Assembly (NCBI GenBank): GCA_026713105.1
Contig: JAPOPC010000036.1
Coordinates: 1 to 62,602 of the forward strand
Source of the DNA: Acidimicrobiaceae bacterium
GTDB taxonomy: Bacteria; Actinomycetota; Acidimicrobiia; Acidimicrobiales; Poriferisodalaceae
Length of the DNA: 62,602 nucleotides
Direction of reading: 5' to 3'
Position numbers and translations under genes: made by a program. Shown in pieces: positions 1,676 through 48,368 of this stretch. Within the stretch, counting starts at the first letter, position 1, and each line of letters begins with the position of its first letter. The notes under the pieces were generated by a model. It saw nothing but the letters and a program-made list of their open reading frames with translations. It had not been told where the DNA came from and did no database searches.

Positions 1676-2437
1676 TCAATCGCGTCGTCGAACAGCGGGA
1701 TGCGGCAGCAATCGCGCAGAGGCGGCGCGCTCATCGAGTTCGGAGCACAACTCGGCATAGATCTCGGGTCCGCAGATGGCTGTCAGTTCGTCGCGTAGCG
1801 CTGTGAAGACGCGCTGGCTGCCGACGTGCGCGTTCGCCGACGACGTGCACCACCAGGAGACGTCGGTGTCGGGTCCTCCCCAGTCGCGCAGCTCCCATTC
1901 CCGCACCATCGTGTAGACGTGGCCCGTGACGGTCTCGTGGTCCTCGCGGCGGATCGGCGCCTGCCAGCAGATCTCGGGCTTGGTGTCCATCGGCCGCCGA
2001 CCGGTGCGCTCGGCCAGTACGTGGAAGGCACAACCCGCGCCGGCGGGGTAATCGGCCCGGTTCGCGAACACGCAGGCTCCGTCCACGACCCGAGTTCGCC
2101 ACCAGCCCTCGCCGTCTTGCCACAACGCCTCTGCAGAAGCGCGGTAGTGCTGCCAGATCTCGGCGTCCAGTTCGGCGATCATCGAACGGATGTGGGCGAG
2201 GTCGTCGTCGCCGTTGAGGTATGCGCCGTGGCTGCAGCAGCCCAATGCCAGCTCGGGGGCCGGTTCGGTGTCGATTCCCGGGCAGCCAGCGCCATAGATG
2301 CATGTCCAGGCGCTGGTGAGAAATGTCACATCGAACAGCCACGTGCGATGCTCGTGCGGGTCCTCCAGCGAGAGCCATTCCCGTGCGTCATCCCCGGGGC
2401 TCCAGTCATCGACGCTCACACCGATATCAGAAGCCAT
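1676..2437 (-). CDS. Conserved Cys-rich actinobacterial protein (Rv2226-like)
   Basis: A 253-residue cytoplasmic protein resembling a conserved actinobacterial family of unknown function (Rv2226-like, from memory). Two cysteine clusters near the N-terminus (WTCIYGAGCPGI and LGCCSHGAYL) and later cysteines (GACVFANR, GAGCAFH) suggest a bound metal or FeS centre, but no activity is claimed. The frame extends back to 2671, but the ATG at 2437 is the better start: the product then begins MASDIGVSVDD, and a TAGGCT hexamer lies 8 bp upstream, the spacing seen for other leaderless genes here. It is divergent from glcD. Confidence 0.68.
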   Translation of the reverse strand: MASDIGVSVDDWSPGDDAREWLSLEDPHEHRTWLFDVTFLTSAWTCIYGAGCPGIDTEPAPELALGCCSHGAYLNGDDDLAHIRSMIAELDAEIWQHYRASAEALWQDGEGWWRTRVVDGACVFANRADYPAGAGCAFHVLAERTGRRPMDTKPEICWQAPIRREDHETVTGHVYTMVREWELRDWGGPDTDVSWWCTSSANAHVGSQRVFTALRDELTAICGPEIYAELCSELDERAASARLLPHPAVRRRD

Positions 2438-2445
2438 CCGCGGCG

Positions 2446-2451
2446 AGCCTA
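2446..2451 (-). promoter_or_regulatory. TAGGCT -10 element, near-leaderless
   Basis: TAGGCT on the minus strand ends 8 bp before the ATG at 2437. It fits TANNNT, the actinobacterial -10 consensus, and sets that ATG as start. Confidence 0.5.
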
Positions 2452-2576
2452 CGAGGCCGAGCTCGCGAGGCCGGGGCCCGAGCGGCCCGTGAGCCTGTAT
2501 CCCAGAGGAATTGCGAACAAGAGCGGGCAACATCAAGGTGGCCGATTTGCCAAGTCGATCTGAAGCACCTGTGGGG

Positions 2577-2582
2577 TACGGT
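2577..2582 (+). promoter_or_regulatory. TACGGT -10 element, leaderless, for glcD
   Basis: TACGGT is followed by exactly 6 bp and then the GTG at 2589, so transcription would begin at the start codon. No -35 box is apparent. Confidence 0.55.
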
Positions 2583-2588
2583 CGCGCT

Positions 2589-4037
2589 GTGGTTCCTGAG
2601 GCTGATACCGCTGCAGATGCGGCCCTGCTTGGCGACCTGCGCGGTGTTGTCGGCGACCGGGCACGCGACAACGACTTCGAGCGGGGCTTGTACAGCCGTG
2701 ACGGCTCGATCGAGGGCAGTTTGCCCGCGATCGTGTGCCTGCCCGAGACTGCCGCCGAAGTCGCGGAGATCGTGGGCGTGTGCCGGCGTCACAGCCGGCC
2801 GTTCCTGGCCCGTGGCTCGGGAACCGGCTTGGCCGGGGGTGCAGTGCCGGTCGGCAGGCCGGTCGTGGTCGCCACGGCGAAGATGGATCGCATCATCGAG
2901 GTCGACGTCGACAATCGCGTCGCCTGGGTCGAGCCCGGGGTGCTGAACCTCGATCTGTCGCGAGCATTGACGCCGCTGGGGTTCCACTTTGCCCCTGATC
3001 CCTCGAGCCAGCAGGTGTGCTCGCTCGGCGGGAACATCGCCAACAACTCCGGGGGACCGCACTGCCTCGCCTACGGCGTCACGACGGCGCACATCGCCGC
3101 ACTTGAGGTGGTGCTTCCCTCCGGCGAGACCACCATGTTGGGCGGGGTGGACGCAGAGCCGCCTGGACTCGACTTGCGCGGGCTCTTCGTGGGCTCCGAG
3201 GGCACGATGGGCATCGCCACGAAGGCAGCGGTGCGTCTCACGCCGAACGCGCCATCAGTCCGGACGCTGCTGCTCGACTTCGACGATGTCAGCGAGGGCT
3301 CGGCCGCCGTCAGCGCCATCATCGCCGCGGGGCTGGTGCCGTCCGCGCTGGAGATGATGGACCAGCGCGCCATCGAGATCGTGGAGGCGTTTGCCCACGC
3401 CGGCTACCCGACCGAGGCCGCAGCGGTGCTGCTGGTCGAACTCGACGGTCTGCCCGGCGGTGTCTCCGCAGGCGTGGAGATCATTCGCGAGGTCGCAGAG
3501 CAGTACCACGCCGGCCACGTGCGAGTCGCAGCCGACGACGCGGAGCGAGCCCTGCTGTGGAAGGGCCGAAAGAACGCATTCGGCGCGGTGGCGCGGATCA
3601 AGCCCGACTACTACCTGCATGACACGGTGGTGCCCCGCTCGCGGCTGACCGAAGTGCTCGATCAGGTGTACCGGATCGCAGACGCCTACGACCTGATCGC
3701 GGTCAATGTGTTCCACGCAGGCGACGGGAACCTGCACCCGATCCTGGCGTTCGACCGGCGCGAACCCGGTGTCGACGAGCGAGTGAAGGCCGCAGGCCGC
3801 GACATCGTCGCTGCATCCATCGCAGCGGGCGGCGTGCTCAGCGGCGAGCACGGGATCGGCTTGGAGAAGCGGGACTACATGGGGATGCTGTTCAGCGCCC
3901 ACGACATGTACACACAGGATCTGGTGCGCGAGACCTTCGATCCTGACGGGTTCGCCAATCCGCTGAAGGTGATCCCGTCGGGTTCGCGCTGCAGCGATTC
4001 TTTCCACCAGCACGTGCCTGAAGGTGCTTGGGTGTGA
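2589..4037 (+). CDS. glcD: FAD-linked oxidase, glycolate oxidase subunit GlcD-like
   Basis: The flavin subunit of a glycolate/D-lactate-type 2-hydroxyacid dehydrogenase, oxidising the hydroxyacid to the oxoacid with FAD. The PCMH-type FAD domain is seen at PFLARGSGTGLAGG and SLGGNIANNSGG; the C-terminal FAD-oxidase domain shows NVFHAGDGNLHP and GEHGIG. The frame is open back to a TTG at 2511, but the GTG at 2589 has a -10 hexamer exactly 6 bp upstream and gives the usual length (482 aa). It is the first of three overlapping genes with glcE and glcF, so the three subunits are probably translated together. The exact substrate cannot be read from sequence; glycolate and D-lactate are both possible. 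Confidence 0.87.
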   Translation: MVPEADTAADAALLGDLRGVVGDRARDNDFERGLYSRDGSIEGSLPAIVCLPETAAEVAEIVGVCRRHSRPFLARGSGTGLAGGAVPVGRPVVVATAKMDRIIEVDVDNRVAWVEPGVLNLDLSRALTPLGFHFAPDPSSQQVCSLGGNIANNSGGPHCLAYGVTTAHIAALEVVLPSGETTMLGGVDAEPPGLDLRGLFVGSEGTMGIATKAAVRLTPNAPSVRTLLLDFDDVSEGSAAVSAIIAAGLVPSALEMMDQRAIEIVEAFAHAGYPTEAAAVLLVELDGLPGGVSAGVEIIREVAEQYHAGHVRVAADDAERALLWKGRKNAFGAVARIKPDYYLHDTVVPRSRLTEVLDQVYRIADAYDLIAVNVFHAGDGNLHPILAFDRREPGVDERVKAAGRDIVAASIAAGGVLSGEHGIGLEKRDYMGMLFSAHDMYTQDLVRETFDPDGFANPLKVIPSGSRCSDSFHQHVPEGAWV

Positions 4038-5026
4038 GTTCGCAGTCCAGCAGCGCCGGAGCGCCGCCGGCGATGAGTTCGGGCACTGGCCCCGCTGAAG
4101 TCAGCGCCAGTCTCGCCGCGCGGATAGATCCCGCCGTCACCGAATTCGCCCGCGAGGTCGGCGCCAGCGATCCGATCACGGTGGTGGGCACGCGCACCCA
4201 TTGGCACGTCGGCGGTGAACTGGCCGCGGGGACGCGTGAGATCCGGGCGCCTGCCGGTGTGTGGGAACACGAACCGTCGGAGATGACGGTGCGGTGCGGC
4301 GCGGCCACATCCGTCGGCGAGCTGAGCGCGCACCTGGCGCAAACCGGCCAGATGATCCCTCTCGACCCTGCCGACGATGCGGCGACCGTCGGTGGAGTGC
4401 TGGCGTGCGGGTTCAGCGGACACCGCAGGCTCCGCTACGGGCATGTGCGCGATCTCGTGCTGCAGACGCGCCACGTCGACGCCACCGGCAAAGTCGTCAC
4501 GGCCGGCGGCCCGACGGTGAAGAACGTCTCGGGCTACGACCTGCCCCGCCTGTTGGTGGGATCGCTGGGCACGCTCGGCCTGCTGGCTGAGGTGATTCTG
4601 CGAACCCTGCCCGTGCCGCCAGCCGCGCAGTGGCTTCACGGCGACGGCGATCCGTTCGCAGCGTTCGACCTGCTGTACCGGCCGAGCAGCGTCCTGTGGG
4701 ATGGCACGCAAGCCTGGATCCTGTTGGAGGGCGATCCGTCCGACGTCGCCGCCGAGGCCGCGAGGGTCGAACCTCTGGGCTTTGGCCCCACAACGGACGC
4801 GCCGCATGTGCCCGCGACAGGGCGTGAATCGATGCGACCCTCGGACCTGCGAACGCTCGCCGGCACCGGGGGCGGATGGCTGGCAGAAGTGGGCGTTGGC
4901 CTGGTGCATCGAGTCGAACCGGTCGATGCGGGACCGGTCGCACCGGCCAACGCAGCCTTGATGACCGAGCTGAAACAGAGACTGGATCCTGCCGGCCGGC
5001 TGAATCCGGGCAGGAGTGCATGGTGA
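4034..5026 (+). CDS. glcE: FAD-binding subunit GlcE-like
   Basis: Second flavin-domain subunit of the glycolate oxidase-type complex, 330 aa. FAD-binding segments are visible at ADDAATVGGVLACGFSGH and TVKNVSGYDLPRLLVGSLG, both typical of GlcE. The likely start is the GTG at 4034, which overlaps the glcD stop as GTGA, the standard coupling arrangement; a TTG at 4028 is possible. It ends overlapping the glcF start. A short, divergent C-terminal half is normal for GlcE. Confidence 0.85.
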   Translation: MSSQSSSAGAPPAMSSGTGPAEVSASLAARIDPAVTEFAREVGASDPITVVGTRTHWHVGGELAAGTREIRAPAGVWEHEPSEMTVRCGAATSVGELSAHLAQTGQMIPLDPADDAATVGGVLACGFSGHRRLRYGHVRDLVLQTRHVDATGKVVTAGGPTVKNVSGYDLPRLLVGSLGTLGLLAEVILRTLPVPPAAQWLHGDGDPFAAFDLLYRPSSVLWDGTQAWILLEGDPSDVAAEAARVEPLGFGPTTDAPHVPATGRESMRPSDLRTLAGTGGGWLAEVGVGLVHRVEPVDAGPVAPANAALMTELKQRLDPAGRLNPGRSAW

Positions 5027-31093: not shown

Positions 31094-31483
31094 TCACCAG
31101 AGAGTGGCGACAGGGAATTCCTCGAACGCCCGGTCCCTCGTGACGAGCGTCAACGACTCGATCTCGGCTTGCGCTGCCAGCATCCGGTCGAACGGATCCT
31201 TGTGCGCGGCCTCGTAGCTGCCAGCCCTGAGTGCCTGCTCGTGTATGACGGGAAGGTGCAGAAAGCCGTCTGCGGTTACTGATGCGCCGAAATGGGGAAC
31301 GAGCCCGCTGAATTCGCCGAGTCGGCCCATTCTTGACTTGGTCGCCATCTCCCATGCGCTCACCGCGCTCGCGAACACATGAGCATCTGGATCGGAGATC
31401 GCATCGCGAGCGACTGGTGAGAGCGATGGATGATCGGTCCACCACCACAGCAGCGCAGGTGTGTCGAGCAAGAGGTCGTTCAT
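31094..31483 (-). CDS. vapC: PIN-domain toxin, VapC type
   Basis: A 129-residue PIN-domain RNase, the toxin half of a type II toxin-antitoxin pair. Acidic active-site residues are seen in LLLDTPALLWW, SAVSAWEMATKS, KDPFDRMLAAQA and LVTRDRAFEEF. The ATG overlaps the antitoxin stop by 4 bp (31480-31483). Likely targets are tRNA or rRNA, not defined by sequence. Confidence 0.88.
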   Translation of the reverse strand: MNDLLLDTPALLWWWTDHPSLSPVARDAISDPDAHVFASAVSAWEMATKSRMGRLGEFSGLVPHFGASVTADGFLHLPVIHEQALRAGSYEAAHKDPFDRMLAAQAEIESLTLVTRDRAFEEFPVATLW

Positions 31484-31722
31484 TCACCCTCCCACAAAGC
31501 GAGTTCATCGTCTGGCAAGGGGTCGAAGAACTCGGGCGGGATCTTCAGCCCGCGGAATCTACCCGGCATCCGTCGAGTCGCCGCCGGCACGTACGGCACC
31601 AGACGGGCGCAGGGCTTACCTGCCCGCGCAATCACGATCTCCTCGCCCGCCTCAACCCGGCTGAGGAGCTTCGACAGGTGCGTCTTCGCCTCATGTACAT
31701 TCACGAAAGATGAAGATTCCAT
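31480..31722 (-). CDS. vapB: Phd/YefM-type antitoxin
   Basis: An 80-residue antitoxin. The N-terminal DNA-binding half is seen at VNVHEAKTHLSKLLSRVEAG and EEIVIARAGKPCARLVPY; the C-terminal half (FRGLKIPPEFFDPLPDDELA) would wrap and inhibit VapC. ATG 31722 overlaps a perfect TATAAT on the minus strand (31721-31726); if that is the real -10, translation would start at the internal GTG 31704. A palindrome 50 bp upstream is the probable operator. Confidence 0.85.
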   Translation of the reverse strand: MESSSFVNVHEAKTHLSKLLSRVEAGEEIVIARAGKPCARLVPYVPAATRRMPGRFRGLKIPPEFFDPLPDDELALWEGE

Positions 31723-31771: not shown

Positions 31772-31792
31772 TTAGTCTAGTGACTAGACTAA
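31772..31792. promoter_or_regulatory. 21-bp perfect palindrome, probable VapBC operator
   Basis: Arms TTAGTCTAG (31772-31780) and CTAGACTAA (31784-31792) are perfect inverted copies around a 3-bp centre. The site lies 50 bp upstream of the antitoxin start in a markedly AT-rich patch. This is the size and place expected of a toxin-antitoxin autoregulatory site. Confidence 0.6.
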
Positions 31793-31865: not shown

Positions 31866-31957
31866 ATTCCCGCAACGCGCTATGGACGACTCCCAGAACG
31901 CACTGTAAACCATTCCCGAAACGCGCTATAAATGATTCCCGAAACGCGCTATTGTTG
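31866..31957. repeat. 23-bp tandem repeat array, 4 units plus a degenerate fifth
   Basis: Units begin at 31866, 31889, 31912 and 31935, each 23 bp, with core attcccgaaacgcgctat. Units 3 and 4 match over 18 bases; units 1 and 2 differ at a few positions. A fifth, eroded unit begins at 31958. There are no spacers, so this is not CRISPR. The last unit contains TATTGT (31950-31955), the likely -10 of the ATPase gene, so a protein bound to the array would block or recruit polymerase. Confidence 0.85.
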
Positions 31958-31990
31958 ACTCGCAACGTGCCGGGCGAGGAATTCAGCGAA

Positions 31991-33271
31991 ATGCCGGAAC
32001 TACACGCGAAGCTCACCATGCCTGGCTACTTGCCGCGCGTCGCCGACTTCCAGATCGAGGCAGCTCTTCGGCGGCGTGGCGCGGTGCTGATCGAAGGCGC
32101 TAGGGGTTGTGGCAAGACGTGGACGGGTCGCAACCATGCCCGGAGCGAAGCCAGATTCGATGTCGAGGCCATGCGCCTGCTCGCCGCGGCCGACCCGGCC
32201 TCGGCATTAGCCGGTGACGTCCCGCGCCTGTTAGATGAGTGGCAGAACGCCCCAGGTATCTGGAACCCAGTCCGGCGCGAGTGCGACGACAGGGCACAGC
32301 CGGGGCAGTTCATCTTGACGGGCTCGGCCAACCCCACCGATGATCTCACGCGGCACACCGGAACCGGCCGTGTGGGTCGGGTCGTGATGAGAACCATGTC
32401 GCTCTACGAGTCGGGAGCCTCTGGGGGCACAATCTCCCTGCGCGGGCTCTTCAATGGTGAGCAGCAGTCGTCACTGCCGACTCCCGGCGTCGCGCTGAGC
32501 GACATTGTGCGGCACCTTGTCACTGGCGGCTGGCCTGGCAGCCTCTCGTTGGACCATGAGAACGCTCGTCTGTCGGTCGGTGACTACATCGACGAGATCA
32601 CGCGAGTGGATGTCCCACAAGCGAGCGGTGTCCAGCACAACCCGGCAGCGGTGCAACGACTGTTGCGCTCACTGGCGCGAAATGTGGCCACTGAGGCCCG
32701 TGAGTCGAAACTGGCGGCGGAAATGGACGGTGAGACGCTCGGCCGGAGCACCGTTGGGGCGTATCTGGATGCACTGCGGCGCATCTTCGTAGTGGAGGAT
32801 CAGCCCGCATGGTCGGTGACACTGCGGTCTCGGGCATCGTTGCGCAAGCAGGCGAAGCGGCACTTCGTCGACCCATCTCTGGCGGCCTTCCTGCTGCGCG
32901 CCTCGCCGCAACGGTTGCTGGCAGATCCTGAGACGCTCGGTCTGCTCTTCGAATCGATGGTTGTCAGGGACCTGCGCGTGTACAGCGCACCGCTGGGCGC
33001 CGAGATCTTTCACTACCGGGACGACACTGGCTTGGAGATCGATGCAGTCATCGAGCGCCAAGATGGCGCTTGGATTGCTGCGGAGGTGAAGCTGAGTCCC
33101 GCGGCCGAGGTTGTGGACCGCGCCGCGGTCTCACTGCTGCGGCTGCGGGACAAGATCGCGGCACGCCGCGCTCAAGACATGGTCGGCCTGATGGTGGTGA
33201 CGTCGGTCGGCGCCGCGTACCGCCGGCCCGACGGTGTGCACGTAGTTCCCATCATCCAGCTCGGTCCGTAG
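31991..33271 (+). CDS. DUF4143-type ATPase (copy 1)
   Basis: A 426-residue protein with an N-terminal AAA-type ATPase domain and a C-terminal DUF4143 region. Walker A is IEGARGCGKTW; Walker B is LLDEWQNAP; a sensor-like ILTGSANPT follows. The C-terminus has GLEIDAVIERQDGAW then AAEVKLS, a D...ExK pattern like PD-(D/E)XK nucleases. ATG 31991 has gagga 10 bp upstream; GTG 31967 and TTG 31952 are other choices. A 23-bp repeat array lies over its promoter. The cellular role of this family is not established; a DNA-related or defence role is inference. A paralogue lies at 47.1 kb. Confidence 0.82.
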   Translation: MPELHAKLTMPGYLPRVADFQIEAALRRRGAVLIEGARGCGKTWTGRNHARSEARFDVEAMRLLAAADPASALAGDVPRLLDEWQNAPGIWNPVRRECDDRAQPGQFILTGSANPTDDLTRHTGTGRVGRVVMRTMSLYESGASGGTISLRGLFNGEQQSSLPTPGVALSDIVRHLVTGGWPGSLSLDHENARLSVGDYIDEITRVDVPQASGVQHNPAAVQRLLRSLARNVATEARESKLAAEMDGETLGRSTVGAYLDALRRIFVVEDQPAWSVTLRSRASLRKQAKRHFVDPSLAAFLLRASPQRLLADPETLGLLFESMVVRDLRVYSAPLGAEIFHYRDDTGLEIDAVIERQDGAWIAAEVKLSPAAEVVDRAAVSLLRLRDKIAARRAQDMVGLMVVTSVGAAYRRPDGVHVVPIIQLGP

Positions 33272-33294
33272 TGTCCCGGTGGGGGCTGGGTGTC

Positions 33295-33381
33295 GAGCAC
33301 GACTTCCTCGCCTCCGTCAACACGCCTGAGCAGCTTCGAGAAATGCGTCTTGGCTGCATGAACGTTGACCACTTCAGTCAT
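33295..33381 (-). pseudogene. Truncated Phd-type antitoxin
   Basis: ATG 33381 with a good ribosome site (gaaggg) opens a frame whose first 29 residues (TEVVNVHAAKTHFSKLLRRV and GGEEVVL) closely match the intact antitoxin at 31480. Likeness stops at about 33295 and the frame then runs on antisense into the 3' end of the ATPase gene as far as 33172. The toxin-binding half is gone and no toxin gene remains. The breakpoint is within about 25 bp of the ATPase stop, suggesting the ATPase module arrived here by insertion or recombination. Confidence 0.65.
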
Positions 33382-33451
33382 TGACTGCCCTTCCCTGTCG
33401 AGTCGCGTCGCTGTTGAGTTTCCAGTCTGGAGGACCAGGCGGTTCTCAGTC

Positions 33452-36109
33452 TTACGCCAGGCGCGGCGACATCGGCGGGCTGACCACCGTGGCATTCCCA
33501 ACGTGGGCATAGCGGCCCGGCGTGCACGTGAGGATGATCACTTGGCAGTGTTCGCTGGCACTGTTGATCGCGGCACCCATGCCTCGTAATCGGGATGGAT
33601 CGCTCCAGCCGAGAGCGTCGTCAAGGATCACCGGCGCGCCGCTGCCGTCGGGGCTGACGATCGACGCACAGGCCAATCGAGCGATGATTCCCAGCTGCTC
33701 TTGTGCACCGGTGCTGAGCTGGTTCACGCCAAGTGTGATGCCGCCGAGCGTGCGGCGCGAAACTGCCAGCGCATCGTTCACGTCGACCGCGAATGAGGTG
33801 TCGTAGACGATGCGCCCGTACTGCTCGATGCGTTGCTTGAACGGCGCGATGTACCGCTGACGTGCTTCGCTACGCCGGCGCTCGAAAACCTGGTGAAGCA
33901 GCCTCGCGGCCTCCGCCCTGTCCCGGAGGCTGCGGTCCTGTGCGATGCAACGATCCCGGTTGCTGCAGGCGGCGTCGAGCTGGGCGCCGAGACCCTTCTC
34001 GCCTCGAAGATCGAGGCTGATCTGCAGGGCTCTCAGGTCGTCACGGTTTTTCGACAACGCTGCCCTTGCCCGTTCCAATGCTTGCCCAGCATTAGACAGT
34101 CGGTCGCGCAACGAGCCGATGTCGAGTTTCTTTAGCTGCCTCCGAGAGGCGTCTCGGTCGGTTCGAGCTGCCCGCTCCGTCTCTTGCGCCGCGGCGACAC
34201 GCTGACCGAGCACTGCGTCGGCGAGCTGTGCCCTGGCAGTCTCCAGCTTTTGCGTTGCGCTCGCGGTGGCTGTGTCGGCGGCCGCGATAGTTGCTGTCAA
34301 GGCGGCGTGGTCGATTTCTTCCCTATGCAGTGCCTTTTGCGCGCTTTCGAGAATTGTCACGGCGGAGTCAAGAGCTGATTTCGCGCGTTTCAGTTCGTCC
34401 CGCAGGTCGAGCGCAGCTCGAAGCGCAGTGTCGTGGTCGGGCGGCAGGGCAACGTCAGCAGTGCGCTCGTTCGGGTAGGCGGCGACTCGCGCAGAGAGCC
34501 GTTCGGCCTTGCTGGCCAGATCATCAACGGTCAAGTCGTCGAGGTCGCGTTCGATGTCGTCGCGCGCTCGGCCGAGCTTGCGCGAGGCGGCATCACGGCG
34601 CTCAAGTGCGTCGCGGGCTTCGGCGAGATTGGCCACTCCGACCTCGTCACAGAGCATGCGCAACGCTGCTTCGGCTTCGACACGCTTGCTGCTGAGTTGG
34701 CGTGACTCGTTCCCAGCGGTCACGGTGATCTTCAGCGAATCTGGGACGACAATCTCGGCAGAATCGACGACGTCGGTGACCTGCTCGTCGCCCTCTCGCA
34801 TATGCAGGGCAACACCGTCGACGATGACTTCGACATCACTCAGGCCGGTGGTCACGACCGTCGCCGAGCCAGCGTCTGCCGCAGCCTGTGCCTCGATGAC
34901 GGCCTGCTGGGCGGCTTCAATCTGTGTGACGTCTTCGCTGTCGAGTTGTACAGATTCGATGACGGCGTTGGCGGCGTCGAGTCGCTCTTGCGCTGCTGCG
35001 ACACGCTCGTGACGCGCTCTGAGGTGCCTGGCTTCGATGATCTGTCGCAGGTGCTCACTGTCACGGTCTGCCAGCGCGCTTGCCCGCTGGATCTGGTCGA
35101 AGTATTCCCGTGCTGTCCGGTGAGCAGCCTCAGCCTCGTCGTAGTGCCGTTGGGCTGCGGCTAAAGCCGGCGCGGCTTTCTCGGCCCGGGCCCTGAGCTC
35201 GGCTGCTTCTTGCCGATATCGCGCGTCCTCGTTGACGAGGTCTGTCCGTGCTTCATGGTCGGCCCGTGCACGCGCCGCCTCGGTCTTCAGCCGCTCCAAC
35301 TCAGATTCAAGCTGGCTGAGCTCGCCCTCGACCTCCTCGGCTGCGTCTACCTGCCGCTGGCACTCGTCTCGGGCCTCTTCGGCTTGGAGCACGAGCTGCT
35401 GCAGGCGTTCCGTGTCCGAGGCCAGTCGCGTTGCCCGCTCGGCGTCTGCTTCGACTTCAGCAAGCTGCTGGGTCAACGACGCCACATCGGCCTCAGCCTC
35501 GGCCACGCTTCTTTGCGAGTCGGAAAGGATTGTCTTGCGCTTGCCCTTCGGCGTCCAGTAGATGTCGCGTTCGGCGGTGATCGCCTGCCAGATCCCGTCG
35601 TGACTGTCGCTGTCGCCGACGGCTCCTGCGGCGGTGTCCAGCGCAGCGCCGAGATCGGTGTCGACGAAAGAAGGCAACGCCAACTCGGTTCCTTGTCGGA
35701 CTTGGAGTGCCCGAAGCAAGCCGGTGTCAAGAGTCTCTGACAGGATCGACTGCACGCGTTCGTGGGCTTCATCGCCGGTGAGTTGTTCGCGTCGTGGCGC
35801 GGAGATGTCGAGTGTGGTCATGCCTCTGCGCCCCCACCGCTTGGCGAAGACGAACCGGTACGGCCCAGTTGAGATTTCGGCCTCGACTTCGGGATCGGCG
35901 TCACGATGTACGGGTCTGACCGCCTTGACGCGTCGATCACCAGAACGGTCCTTGAAGCGTTCGTCGAGGAGCAAGTCGAGCGCCTCGACGAGGCTGGTCT
36001 TGCCAGCCTCGTTGTCGCCTTCGATCACGGTGACTCCGCACTCGTCGAACGTCACTTCGGCAAGATCGACGCCTCTGTAGTTCGTGAGCGTGATGCGCTG
36101 AATCCTCAT
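33452..36109 (-). CDS. SbcC/YhaN-like coiled-coil ATPase
   Basis: An SMC/Rad50-type ATPase, 885 aa. Walker A is EGDNEAGKTSLVEAL near residue 35; long heptad-rich coiled coils follow on each side of a central globular part (around SDVEVIVDGVALHMREG); the signature LSTGAQEQLGIIARLA and Walker B PVILDDALGWSD are near the C-terminus. The ATG overlaps the stop of the upstream phosphoesterase gene, so the two form an Mre11-Rad50-like nuclease complex, probably acting on DNA ends or protein-blocked DNA. It is shorter than typical SbcC and closer in layout to YhaN. Confidence 0.85.
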   Translation of the reverse strand: MRIQRITLTNYRGVDLAEVTFDECGVTVIEGDNEAGKTSLVEALDLLLDERFKDRSGDRRVKAVRPVHRDADPEVEAEISTGPYRFVFAKRWGRRGMTTLDISAPRREQLTGDEAHERVQSILSETLDTGLLRALQVRQGTELALPSFVDTDLGAALDTAAGAVGDSDSHDGIWQAITAERDIYWTPKGKRKTILSDSQRSVAEAEADVASLTQQLAEVEADAERATRLASDTERLQQLVLQAEEARDECQRQVDAAEEVEGELSQLESELERLKTEAARARADHEARTDLVNEDARYRQEAAELRARAEKAAPALAAAQRHYDEAEAAHRTAREYFDQIQRASALADRDSEHLRQIIEARHLRARHERVAAAQERLDAANAVIESVQLDSEDVTQIEAAQQAVIEAQAAADAGSATVVTTGLSDVEVIVDGVALHMREGDEQVTDVVDSAEIVVPDSLKITVTAGNESRQLSSKRVEAEAALRMLCDEVGVANLAEARDALERRDAASRKLGRARDDIERDLDDLTVDDLASKAERLSARVAAYPNERTADVALPPDHDTALRAALDLRDELKRAKSALDSAVTILESAQKALHREEIDHAALTATIAAADTATASATQKLETARAQLADAVLGQRVAAAQETERAARTDRDASRRQLKKLDIGSLRDRLSNAGQALERARAALSKNRDDLRALQISLDLRGEKGLGAQLDAACSNRDRCIAQDRSLRDRAEAARLLHQVFERRRSEARQRYIAPFKQRIEQYGRIVYDTSFAVDVNDALAVSRRTLGGITLGVNQLSTGAQEQLGIIARLACASIVSPDGSGAPVILDDALGWSDPSRLRGMGAAINSASEHCQVIILTCTPGRYAHVGNATVVSPPMSPRLA

Positions 36110-37239
36110 TGTGCGGACCTCGTCAGGCGATGCAGCAGCGCAGTCGCGTTCTGGGCCCGGACTGCTTCCGCGGGGTCGGATGACTGGGCTAGTTCACGCA
36201 AGTCGCCCAGTGCGTCGTTCGCGAAGCCCGCAAGCCCAAGCGTGGAAATCTCGGCGTCGTCGGGGACGACAACTAGATCCGATCTTCGTTCCCACGTCTC
36301 GAGAGCCGCAAGCGAGTCGGCGAAGTGATCGAGCAAGCGGTCGAGGCGCTCCTTTTGATCGAGCGAGACCGAGCCGACGAGTGACAGCTTGACGACAGTC
36401 CGCTGCTTGTCTTCGAGTGCGTCGAGCCACTGTTGCAATGAGTCGATATCTGTATCCGACGAGAGATGACACTGGTGCTGTCGGAAACGCCATTTGCCTA
36501 CGCTGCGTGGCGCGACCTCGATTCGTCCCGGCTCGAGTTCAACCACGAGGACATTTCCTGGATCTTCCTCGCGGTAGTCGGTTGGCTCGGGCGCACCTGA
36601 GTACCAGACACGACCAGTCGTGCCCTCGTTGGTCGTGGAGTGGCGATCGCCGAGCGCGACATAGTGGACTTCGTCTGCCTCAATACGCGCCTCCAATCGC
36701 TCCAGCGAAATGAGGGCAGGATCAGATGCGTCGGGTGAACGATTGTCGAGTGCGCCGTGGCCGACGATGATGCGAAGCGCGGCAGGCGGCGCAGCGGCTG
36801 CGCACGCCTGATCTACCAAGTCTTGAAGTGGGCGTTTGGAGGTCCATGGCGCACCAACCAACTCGATGCCGTCAGCTACCGGCAGCGGCTCAGAATCCTC
36901 CAACACGACAACATTCGGCAGTCTGCGTTCGCGAAACGTATTTGAGCGGAAGATCGAGGCGGCATCCAACGGATCGTGATTTCCAGGCACGAGGTAGAAA
37001 GTCACCTCCGGCGTGGCGGCCATCGCATCGAGGGCGCGGGCGAGCACTTGGCGGTCGATCTGGTTCGACTCGAAGACGTCGCCGGATACGACGACGAAAT
37101 CACATTCCTCGTCGACTGCTAGCTGGCCGATGTTGCCAACGGCGTCGATCCGCGCCTGGCTGAACCTCGACTGGGCTTCGCCGTCGAGAAAGTGACGTGT
37201 CATCCCGAGCTGCCAGTCGGCCGTGTGAATGAACTTCAT
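36106..37239 (-). CDS. SbcD/YhaO-like metallophosphoesterase nuclease
   Basis: An Mre11-family calcineurin-like phosphoesterase, 377 aa. Metal and catalytic motifs in order: HTADWQLGM, VVSGDVFE, LVPGNHDP, IVGHGALDN and VALGDRHST. The first motif has Gln where the classical DxH has His. The C-terminal part would contact the SbcC-like partner encoded by the overlapping next gene. TACCGT lies 8 bp before ATG 37239. Confidence 0.85.
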   Translation of the reverse strand: MKFIHTADWQLGMTRHFLDGEAQSRFSQARIDAVGNIGQLAVDEECDFVVVSGDVFESNQIDRQVLARALDAMAATPEVTFYLVPGNHDPLDAASIFRSNTFRERRLPNVVVLEDSEPLPVADGIELVGAPWTSKRPLQDLVDQACAAAAPPAALRIIVGHGALDNRSPDASDPALISLERLEARIEADEVHYVALGDRHSTTNEGTTGRVWYSGAPEPTDYREEDPGNVLVVELEPGRIEVAPRSVGKWRFRQHQCHLSSDTDIDSLQQWLDALEDKQRTVVKLSLVGSVSLDQKERLDRLLDHFADSLAALETWERRSDLVVVPDDAEISTLGLAGFANDALGDLRELAQSSDPAEAVRAQNATALLHRLTRSAQ

Positions 37240-46966: not shown

Positions 46967-47048
46967 GCCGATGGGTGCATCTCGACGCTGCCGCGCAGGG
47001 TGGTGAACCGCTGTCTGGTGCTATGTCATCTTGCCAGGCGATGCTGCG

Positions 47049-47094
47049 TGGAATCACTAGTACGAGACGCGTGAAATCACTAGCCAGGGCCGCG
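47049..47094. repeat. 23-bp tandem repeat, 2 units plus eroded flanks, upstream of ATPase copy 2
   Basis: Units at 47049-47071 and 47072-47094 begin tggaatcactag and tgaaatcactag and end in cgcg. A third, eroded unit appears to follow at 47095-47119, ending ggccgcg. The period equals that of the array at 31866, and the gacgcg boundary resembles the gaaacgcg core there, though the remaining bases differ. Confidence 0.65.
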
Positions 47095-47125
47095 CTAAAG
47101 CACGAACTCGACGGCCGCGACGCAA

Positions 47126-47138: not shown

Positions 47139-48368
47139 ATGCGCAGCTATGTGCACCGCTTGACAGATCCACTGATCGAACAACTGCTCGCCGACCTGTC
47201 CGCAGTATTGGTCGTGGGCGCACGCGCCACCGGCAAGACCACTACGGCGCTTCAGCATGCCGCTTCGTCTGTTCGTTTGGATCACGATGCTCAAGCAGCC
47301 GCGTTTCGCGCTGACCCTGATGCCGCACTGGCGGGTCTGGCCGAACCCGTCCTGCTCGACGAGTGGCAGGCCGTGCCCGCTGTGCTGGGCGCAGTCAAGC
47401 GAGCCGTGGATTCCGACCCGCGGCCGGGACGCTTCATTGTCACCGGTTCGGTGCGTTCGAATTCGGACGGCGGCATGTGGCCAGGCACTGGGCGGCTCGT
47501 GACAGTCGACATGCACCCGTTGACCGTGTCGGAGCAGCTGGGCACTTTGACGATGCCTCTGGTCGATCGCGTGGTCGCCGGTGCGCCGCTGATACCGGCC
47601 GATCCTGCCCCGGACCTGCGGGGCTACGTTGCCTTGGCACTGAGAGGCGGCTTTCCAGAAGCTGCGCTGGCCGCATCCGACAGCACGCGGCAGCGTTGGC
47701 TGCGTTCCTATCTCCGGTATGTCGCCGAGCGCGATGCGCCTGCGTTGGAAGCCGGCCGCGACCCGGTGAAGCTGACGCGCTTCATCGAGGCGTATGCGCT
47801 CAACTCTGCGGGGATGGCGACCGACTCCACGCTCTTCGGGGCCGCCGACATCAGCCGCGATACCGGCGTCGCATACCATCGGCTTCTGTCCGACCTGCGG
47901 ATTGTGGCTGATCTGCCCGCATGGGCATCGAATCGGCTCTCACGGCTGGTAAAGGCGCCGAAGCGGTTCTTCGTGGACTCTGCTCTCGTGGCTGCATCGG
48001 CCGGAGTCTCCGCTCCAGCGGTCATGTCGGATGGAAATCTGCTCGGACGTCTCATCGAGACCTTTGCGGTGGCGCAGCTTCGAGCCGAGTCGGCCGTCAG
48101 CGACCTGTTCCCGCGTCTGCACCATCTACGTGAGGCTCAGGGTCGGCGCGAGATCGATGTCATAGCGGAGCTTGCCGACAGGCGCATCGTCGCTATCGAG
48201 ATCAAGTCTGCTGCGGCGGTGTCCCGGTCTGACGCTCGACATCTGCTCTGGCTCAAGGAGAGCGCCGGCGACCGCTTTGCGGGCGGAGTTGTTCTGCACA
48301 CGGGTCCCCGGACTTACGAACTCGGCCAAGGAATCACGGCCGCGCCGATCAGCACGTTGTGGGCGTGA
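47139..48368 (+). CDS. DUF4143-type ATPase (copy 2)
   Basis: A 409-residue ATPase of the same family as the protein at 31991. Walker A is VVGARATGKTTT, Walker B VLLDEWQAVP, and the sensor-like segment FIVTGSVRSN. The DUF4143 region ends in QGRREIDVIAELADRRIVAI followed by EIKS, again a D...ExK nuclease-like pattern. Sequence likeness to copy 1 is clear in motifs but low overall, so this is an old paralogue or separate acquisition, not a recent duplication. It stands as a single gene with its own repeat-bearing promoter. Confidence 0.83.
   Translation: MRSYVHRLTDPLIEQLLADLSAVLVVGARATGKTTTALQHAASSVRLDHDAQAAAFRADPDAALAGLAEPVLLDEWQAVPAVLGAVKRAVDSDPRPGRFIVTGSVRSNSDGGMWPGTGRLVTVDMHPLTVSEQLGTLTMPLVDRVVAGAPLIPADPAPDLRGYVALALRGGFPEAALAASDSTRQRWLRSYLRYVAERDAPALEAGRDPVKLTRFIEAYALNSAGMATDSTLFGAADISRDTGVAYHRLLSDLRIVADLPAWASNRLSRLVKAPKRFFVDSALVAASAGVSAPAVMSDGNLLGRLIETFAVAQLRAESAVSDLFPRLHHLREAQGRREIDVIAELADRRIVAIEIKSAAAVSRSDARHLLWLKESAGDRFAGGVVLHTGPRTYELGQGITAAPISTLWA

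Follow-up and report, generated by a model that had tools for sequence, protein, structure and literature searches.

Most DUF4143 ATPase genes examined from the PDC-S01 candidate defence type are preceded by 23-bp repeat arrays, largely private, that their products probably bind

The 62,602-bp stretch of DNA analysed here (the window; contig JAPOPC010000036.1 of the Acidimicrobiaceae assembly GCA_026713105.1) contains an AAA_14/DUF4143 ATPase gene, hereafter the first ATPase gene, that lies directly behind four tandem 23-bp repeats. The features of this locus are:

31866..31888, forward strand: array unit 1 (23 bp).
31889..31911, forward strand: array unit 2, the most diverged (23 bp).
31912..31934, forward strand: array unit 3 (23 bp).
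31935..31957, forward strand: array unit 4 (23 bp), overlapping a -10-like hexamer, TATTGT, at 31950-31955.
31991..33271, forward strand: AAA_14/DUF4143 ATPase gene (426 amino acids), with Pfam matches and a PADLOC PDC-S01 match.
32096..32119, forward strand: Walker A motif GARGCGKT, residues 36-43 (K42 in 152/152 array-bearing genes).
32228..32242, forward strand: Walker B motif LLDEW, residues 80-84 (D82 and E83 each in 151/152 array-bearing genes).
32642..32866, forward strand: predicted winged helix-turn-helix, residues 218-292 (AlphaFold2 model, mean pLDDT 93.4), where covariation with the repeats peaks.
32744-32782, forward strand: predicted recognition helix, residues 252-264, within the winged helix-turn-helix.
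32858..33268, forward strand: PD-(D/E)XK-like C-terminal domain, residues 290-426 (E349, D351, E365, K367).
33023-33028, forward strand: predicted base-reading loop, residues 345-346, the site of the loop covariation.

A first-pass annotation, made from the sequence, had described four units with an exact 23-bp period, and both their coordinates (31866-31957) and Tandem Repeats Finder (31866-31952, period 23, 3.8 copies, score 104, the top of 45 rows) bear this out. The 18-bp core that it quoted recurs without change in units 3 and 4, whereas unit 1 departs from it at one position and unit 2 at five. When the whole 62.6 kb was scanned for 23-bp self-similarity, two segments scored at least 9: this array (27.0) and a second one at 47046-47083 (12.5). 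Matches to the core with up to three mismatches, a search that recovers three of the four units, were confined to the first array across the 3.96-Mb assembly (117 contigs). The exact tandem pattern occurred in 1 of 296 genomes of the class, the window itself, and was absent from the viral contigs searched; a plasmid DNA search with the array likewise gave no match. Taken by itself, this search would have suggested a singleton, but what is private is the sequence of the array and not its architecture. The annotation had also placed bound proteins on one face of the DNA, which is wrong in the strict sense because 23 bp corresponds to 2.19 turns (at 10.5 bp per turn), a rotation of about 69 degrees with each unit.

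The first ATPase matches Pfam DUF4143 (E 1.2e-33, 116.6 bits; curated cut-off 28.1) and AAA_14 (E 3e-11, 43.8 bits; cut-off 27) as well as the PADLOC PDC-S01 profile PDLC04790 (E 2.4e-70, residues 7-422); searches with NCBIfam and PHROGs profiles gave no match. Judging by the closest homologues, its start is better placed at ATG 31991 than at TTG 31952, a codon inside the array. The P-loop and the D...ExK nuclease-like C-terminus read from the sequence in the first pass are both present, and their residues are nearly invariant among array-bearing genes (E349 in 150/150, D351 in 149/150, E365 in 149/149, K367 in 148/149, beside the Walker residues listed above). Modelled alone, the C-terminal domain (pLDDT 92.4) has McrC as its best structural match (E 7.5e-4), followed by weak matches to Card1, EndoMS and AgeI; by predicted fold and by residues it belongs to the PD-(D/E)XK superfamily, as a putative nuclease. 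A sequence search for solved relatives returned matches confined to the P-loop region. A homologue with 90% identity is named Candidatus Poriferisodalis, and the label Acidimicrobiia is attached to several of the close named loci, which makes an acidimicrobial symbiont the likely host of the gene. In two congeners the gene occupies the same chromosomal site, with flanks that align on both sides, so that its recent transfer as a mobile cassette is not supported.

The second segment of the self-similarity scan belongs to an array that differs in sequence from the first, shares its period, and lies directly 5' of another DUF4143 gene:

47046..47114, forward strand: second array, with two units, at 47046 and at 47069, plus a degenerate third at 47092 (same 23-bp period).
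47139..48368, forward strand: second DUF4143 ATPase gene (409 amino acids; PDC-S01 profile PDLC04790, E 3.4e-105).

The second ATPase is 34% identical to the first over residues 6-421 of the latter. The assembly as a whole holds 18 DUF4143 genes, 15 of them with a 23-bp array (score at least 8). To measure privacy, we left one unit out of the model of its array and scored it in its own promoter against anything in the 17 other promoters; by this test 13 of the 15 arrays were private, with at least one left-out unit scoring best at home. Likeness of repeats between genes keeps to the same strand and fades below about 60-70% protein identity. Two tandem DUF4143 genes of Actinomyces bovis (locus L183, positions 2491 and 4032) each have a near-perfect array of their own, and the two sequences are different.

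The same architecture recurs across the family. We scanned GTDB genomes with a diverse alignment of the family, took the best 80 named loci of at least 581 confirmed, and dropped 7 for want of a usable gene start or of enough upstream DNA, leaving 73. Across 81 upstream regions (75 named loci and 6 viral), the best lag was 23 or 46 in 62 and 22 or 44 in 7. Against a threshold set by dinucleotide shuffles, lag 23 stood out in 58 of the 73 named loci, archaeal ones included, and lag 46 in 48, and each lag outside 22-24 and 45-47 exceeded the threshold in at most 3. There was no excess of lag 23 in control regions 1.3 kb upstream (68 loci) or inside the gene (73). The best lag was also 23 or 46 in 131 of 173 genes from the 177 non-identical ones first gathered (4 had less than 120 bp upstream) and in 51 of 85 new genes less than 70% identical to that set. 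When 258 genes were reduced to 65 representatives at 50% identity, 36 exceeded the score threshold at lag 23, compared with a median of 0 and a maximum of 4 at unrelated lags; relatedness is thereby partly controlled, in samples that lean towards the window's own subfamily. Absence of upstream repeats from homologues, the outcome named in advance as fatal to the proposal, is therefore not what most of these loci and genes show.

Among the labels of array-bearing loci are Chloroflexi, Gemmatimonadetes, Nitrospirales, Prevotella, Spirochaetaceae and two archaeal bins; since many of these loci come from metagenome bins, a given organism label may be wrong. One contig labelled as a Klebsiella pneumoniae metagenome-assembled genome (L165) has an array-bearing gene 45% identical to the first ATPase, and mis-binning is possible there. 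A downstream control, free of N, showed lag 23 in 4 of 71 loci: in L183 this was the array of the neighbouring DUF4143 gene, in L137 it was unrelated, and in two others the gene's own array occurs again, on the same strand, just behind the gene. These are L182 (Slackia equolifaciens, 2300-4080), where the repeated stretch includes sequence ahead of the array, and L140 (an Oscillospiraceae bin, 1080-2760). The two may have arisen by integration at the array or as tandem duplications that have since decayed.

Some subgroups are spaced differently. Alphaproteobacterial and Marinobacter plasmid copies favour or reach 22 bp in 5 of 6 cases, as do 4 of 5 viral copies (shuffle P 0.01 or less in both groups), with the viral copy L199 fitting 22 and 23 equally; a Sulfitobacter copy has 23-bp spacing. 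Four copies from the window's own phylum are spaced at 32 bp, with PDLC04786 as the best profile in the two checked, and several distant copies have no clear period. PDC-S01 copies spaced at 22 or 32 bp are L106-L109, L112, L194, L195 and L198, and L093 and L096-L098. The residue-to-base code described below is claimed for the 23-bp arrays; copies with 22-bp, 32-bp or no period fall outside it.

To relate repeats to proteins, we used genes with a lag-23 score of at least 9, which were 110 of the 177 training genes and 42 of the 85 held-out genes, the latter less than 70% identical to training genes and, among themselves, cleared of exact duplicates alone. The repeat sequence covaries with residues 251-253, at the start of the predicted recognition helix, and with residues 345-346 of the C-terminal loop. 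Arginine or lysine at 252 goes with G, and aspartate or glutamate at 253 with C, a pairing that is chemically sensible; such a pattern is typical of major-groove reading of DNA.

The rules were then applied as learned to the 42 held-out arrays, and the information gain of each residue-column pair was compared with 2000 permutations. None of the 2000 reached the observed gain for 253-10, 345-1 or 346-0, and the corresponding numbers were 6 for 252-9, 10 for 251-11, 29 for 283-2 and 190 for 253-11. Fisher tests of the named residues against other residues at the same position agreed for position 252 (R/K/H with G9, 17/22 vs 5/20, P 0.0009), for 253 (T/S/A with T10, 12/19 vs 3/21, P 0.002; D/E/N with C10, 6/11 vs 5/29, P 0.03), for 345 (K with G1, 3/3 vs 13/39, P 0.05; N with T1, 4/4 vs 8/38, P 0.004) and for 346 (D/N/S/Y/Q with C0, 14/22 vs 6/20, P 0.03; T/A with T0, 5/6 vs 7/36, P 0.005). 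R283 with G2 gave 17/31 vs 3/11 (P 0.11), and K/H251 with C11 gave 0/1 vs 11/40. In pair tests confined to held-out genes, residue 252 came out at 10 to 0 with 7 ties (P 0.001), and no other residue reached a P below 0.05. The main covariation rules thus held on the 42 held-out arrays.

Together, these results point to the ATPase as the protein that reads its own array. The first pass had allowed either the product or a partner to bind; because the repeats of paralogues differ within one assembly, and because the repeat covaries with the protein's own residues in the recognition helix and C-terminal loop, on held-out genes too, we favour the product. We put at roughly 0.78 the probability that the first ATPase uses its winged helix, together with a loop of its nuclease-like domain, to bind its private array and that it most likely represses its own promoter. 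Each protein is likely to bind its own array, and repression would be the likeliest outcome, judged from the position of the array.

In such a scheme, the four 23-bp units would be head-to-tail sites for the ATPase encoded directly behind them, with one protomer per unit every 2.19 turns. The recognition helix would lie over unit columns 9-11, and the wing and C-terminal loop over columns 0-3, with an A-rich core between. Array-bound ATPase would overlap the promoter and hinder RNA polymerase, keeping the gene low by autorepression, until it was released by a cue from infection or stress that acts through the ATPase. With a separate address for each paralogue, the numerous copies within a genome would be insulated from one another. 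Direct repeats before the protein's own gene are the arrangement expected of an autorepressor. Arrays end a median of 43 bp before the start region, and -10-like hexamers lie near the array 3' end in 49 of 110 training genes (21.1 expected) and, weakly, in 14 of 42 held-out genes (9.1 expected), so that overlap of array and promoter is only partly supported.

Several observations weigh against this interpretation. The first ATPase obeys the code at 252 (G), 345 (C) and 346 (T) and departs from it at 253, and R252 of the second ATPase is an exception, paired with A at column 9. Array-less genes exist, at 15 of the 73 named loci and 3 of the 18 paralogues of the assembly. The array had been reported to end on the -10 hexamer of the gene; TATTGT does lie in unit 4, but a sigma-70 consensus scan found no -35/-10 pair there, and we infer a promoter at the first array.

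Among other explanations, it is improbable, though worth keeping in mind, that the array, while bound by the ATPase, is mainly a place where the nuclease-like domain acts in recombination, homing or self-marking, and not an operator. The nuclease-like residues are conserved and the predicted reading loop adjoins them, and an array-gene-array layout occurs in L182 (110-bp direct repeat, 94.5%) and L140 (59-bp, 96.6%). Yet among 106 genes just 2 have a strong copy of their own array behind them, a third case being marginal, and the first ATPase gene sits at the same chromosomal site in the two congeners.

That a host transcription factor binds the arrays instead is very unlikely. The arrays do sit at expected promoter positions, and binding by a partner was allowed for at the outset, but a single shared factor could hardly read the 15 arrays of one assembly, since they differ in sequence and 13 are private, and the covariation is with residues of the ATPase itself. 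We give equally little credence to the repeats acting as a transcribed leader RNA bound by the ATPase: given their distance from the start region some arrays could be transcribed, but the -10-like hexamers of the training set cluster near the array 3' end, and the R/K-G and D/E-C pairing is of a kind typical of DNA reading. Neutral duplication by slippage is scarcely credible as a full account, for although short tandem repeats arise often and some arrays are near-perfect (L183), one exact period spans many lineages with differing sequences, has no excess 1.3 kb upstream or within the gene, and covaries with the protein, as the lag, shuffle and hold-out results attest.

The first array is adjoined by genes for a PIN-domain toxin and a Phd/YefM-type antitoxin (31094-31722, minus strand), with a palindrome, TTAGTCTAGTGACTAGACTAA, upstream of the pair at 31772-31792; this stretch aligns in congener L006 and is mostly missing in L007. 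Directly behind the ATPase gene is a short antitoxin-like remnant (33290-33383, minus strand; PF02604, E 0.0021, below cut-off), followed by an AAA/SMC-like ATPase gene beside one for a calcineurin-like phosphoesterase (33452-37239, minus strand), an SbcCD-like pair by layout.

The nearest described mechanism that we found is that of RptR, which represses its own defence-island promoter through three direct repeats overlapping the -10 box but, according to excerpts of the report, is a small homodimer and a separate regulator, with 9-bp repeats that contain a 6-bp palindrome (PMC12255303). In the DUF4143 case, the candidate effector itself would read asymmetric, gene-specific 23-bp units. In plasmid iterons, too, repeats of some 20 bp are arranged head to tail, and the winged-helix protein that reads them is encoded next to them. 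Iterons serve replication, whereas Pfam shows AAA_14/DUF4143 alone in the first ATPase. The archaeal ATPases SSO1545 (2fna) and PABY2304 (2qen), and then NLR/CED-4 ATPases, are 12-17% identical to it in alignments that end before the nuclease-like domain, and we know of no private arrays for any of them. IniR, an SSO1545-like mycobacterial ATPase, also binds a promoter, but the operon that it induces is not its own and its DNA-binding domain is a separate one at the C-terminus, with no nuclease-like domain described in the excerpts available (PMC5760070). An AAA_14/DUF4143 gene of Thermus thermophilus rose 6.6-fold with plasmid DNA in the presence of Argonaute and not without it, in the part of the report available (PMC4406477), which shows no more than that a gene of this kind is inducible.

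PDC-S01 is ranked, in the available parts of its description, fourth in frequency among the defence types of prokaryotes, with experimental validation pending as for most PDCs, and is presented as a single-gene ATPase fused to a PD-(D/E)XK domain, which the first ATPase shares along with the profile match; those parts mention no repeat array or DNA target (PMC12988326). An excerpt of another survey ranks it first in frequency among individual loci in rumen genomes (PMC13356809). The first ATPase is a candidate for an anti-phage role on the strength of a database label. In the open-licence literature, preprints not covered, we found no report of arrays at DUF4143 or PDC-S01 genes.

A broader and more doubtful proposal is that PDC-S01/DUF4143 proteins may be one-gene, self-addressed defence switches, with private 23-bp arrays over their own promoters, a decodable residue-to-base code and no cross-talk among many copies in one cell, in which infection would break the array-bound assembly and so free and arm the protein. 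The result gives the PDC-S01 family a likely DNA target that each gene has to itself and that can be read off the sequence, together with a residue-to-base code that experiments can break and then match again. If true, one genome would hold many orthogonal protein-operator pairs, and the function of DUF4143 would become a question of DNA binding and promoter control.
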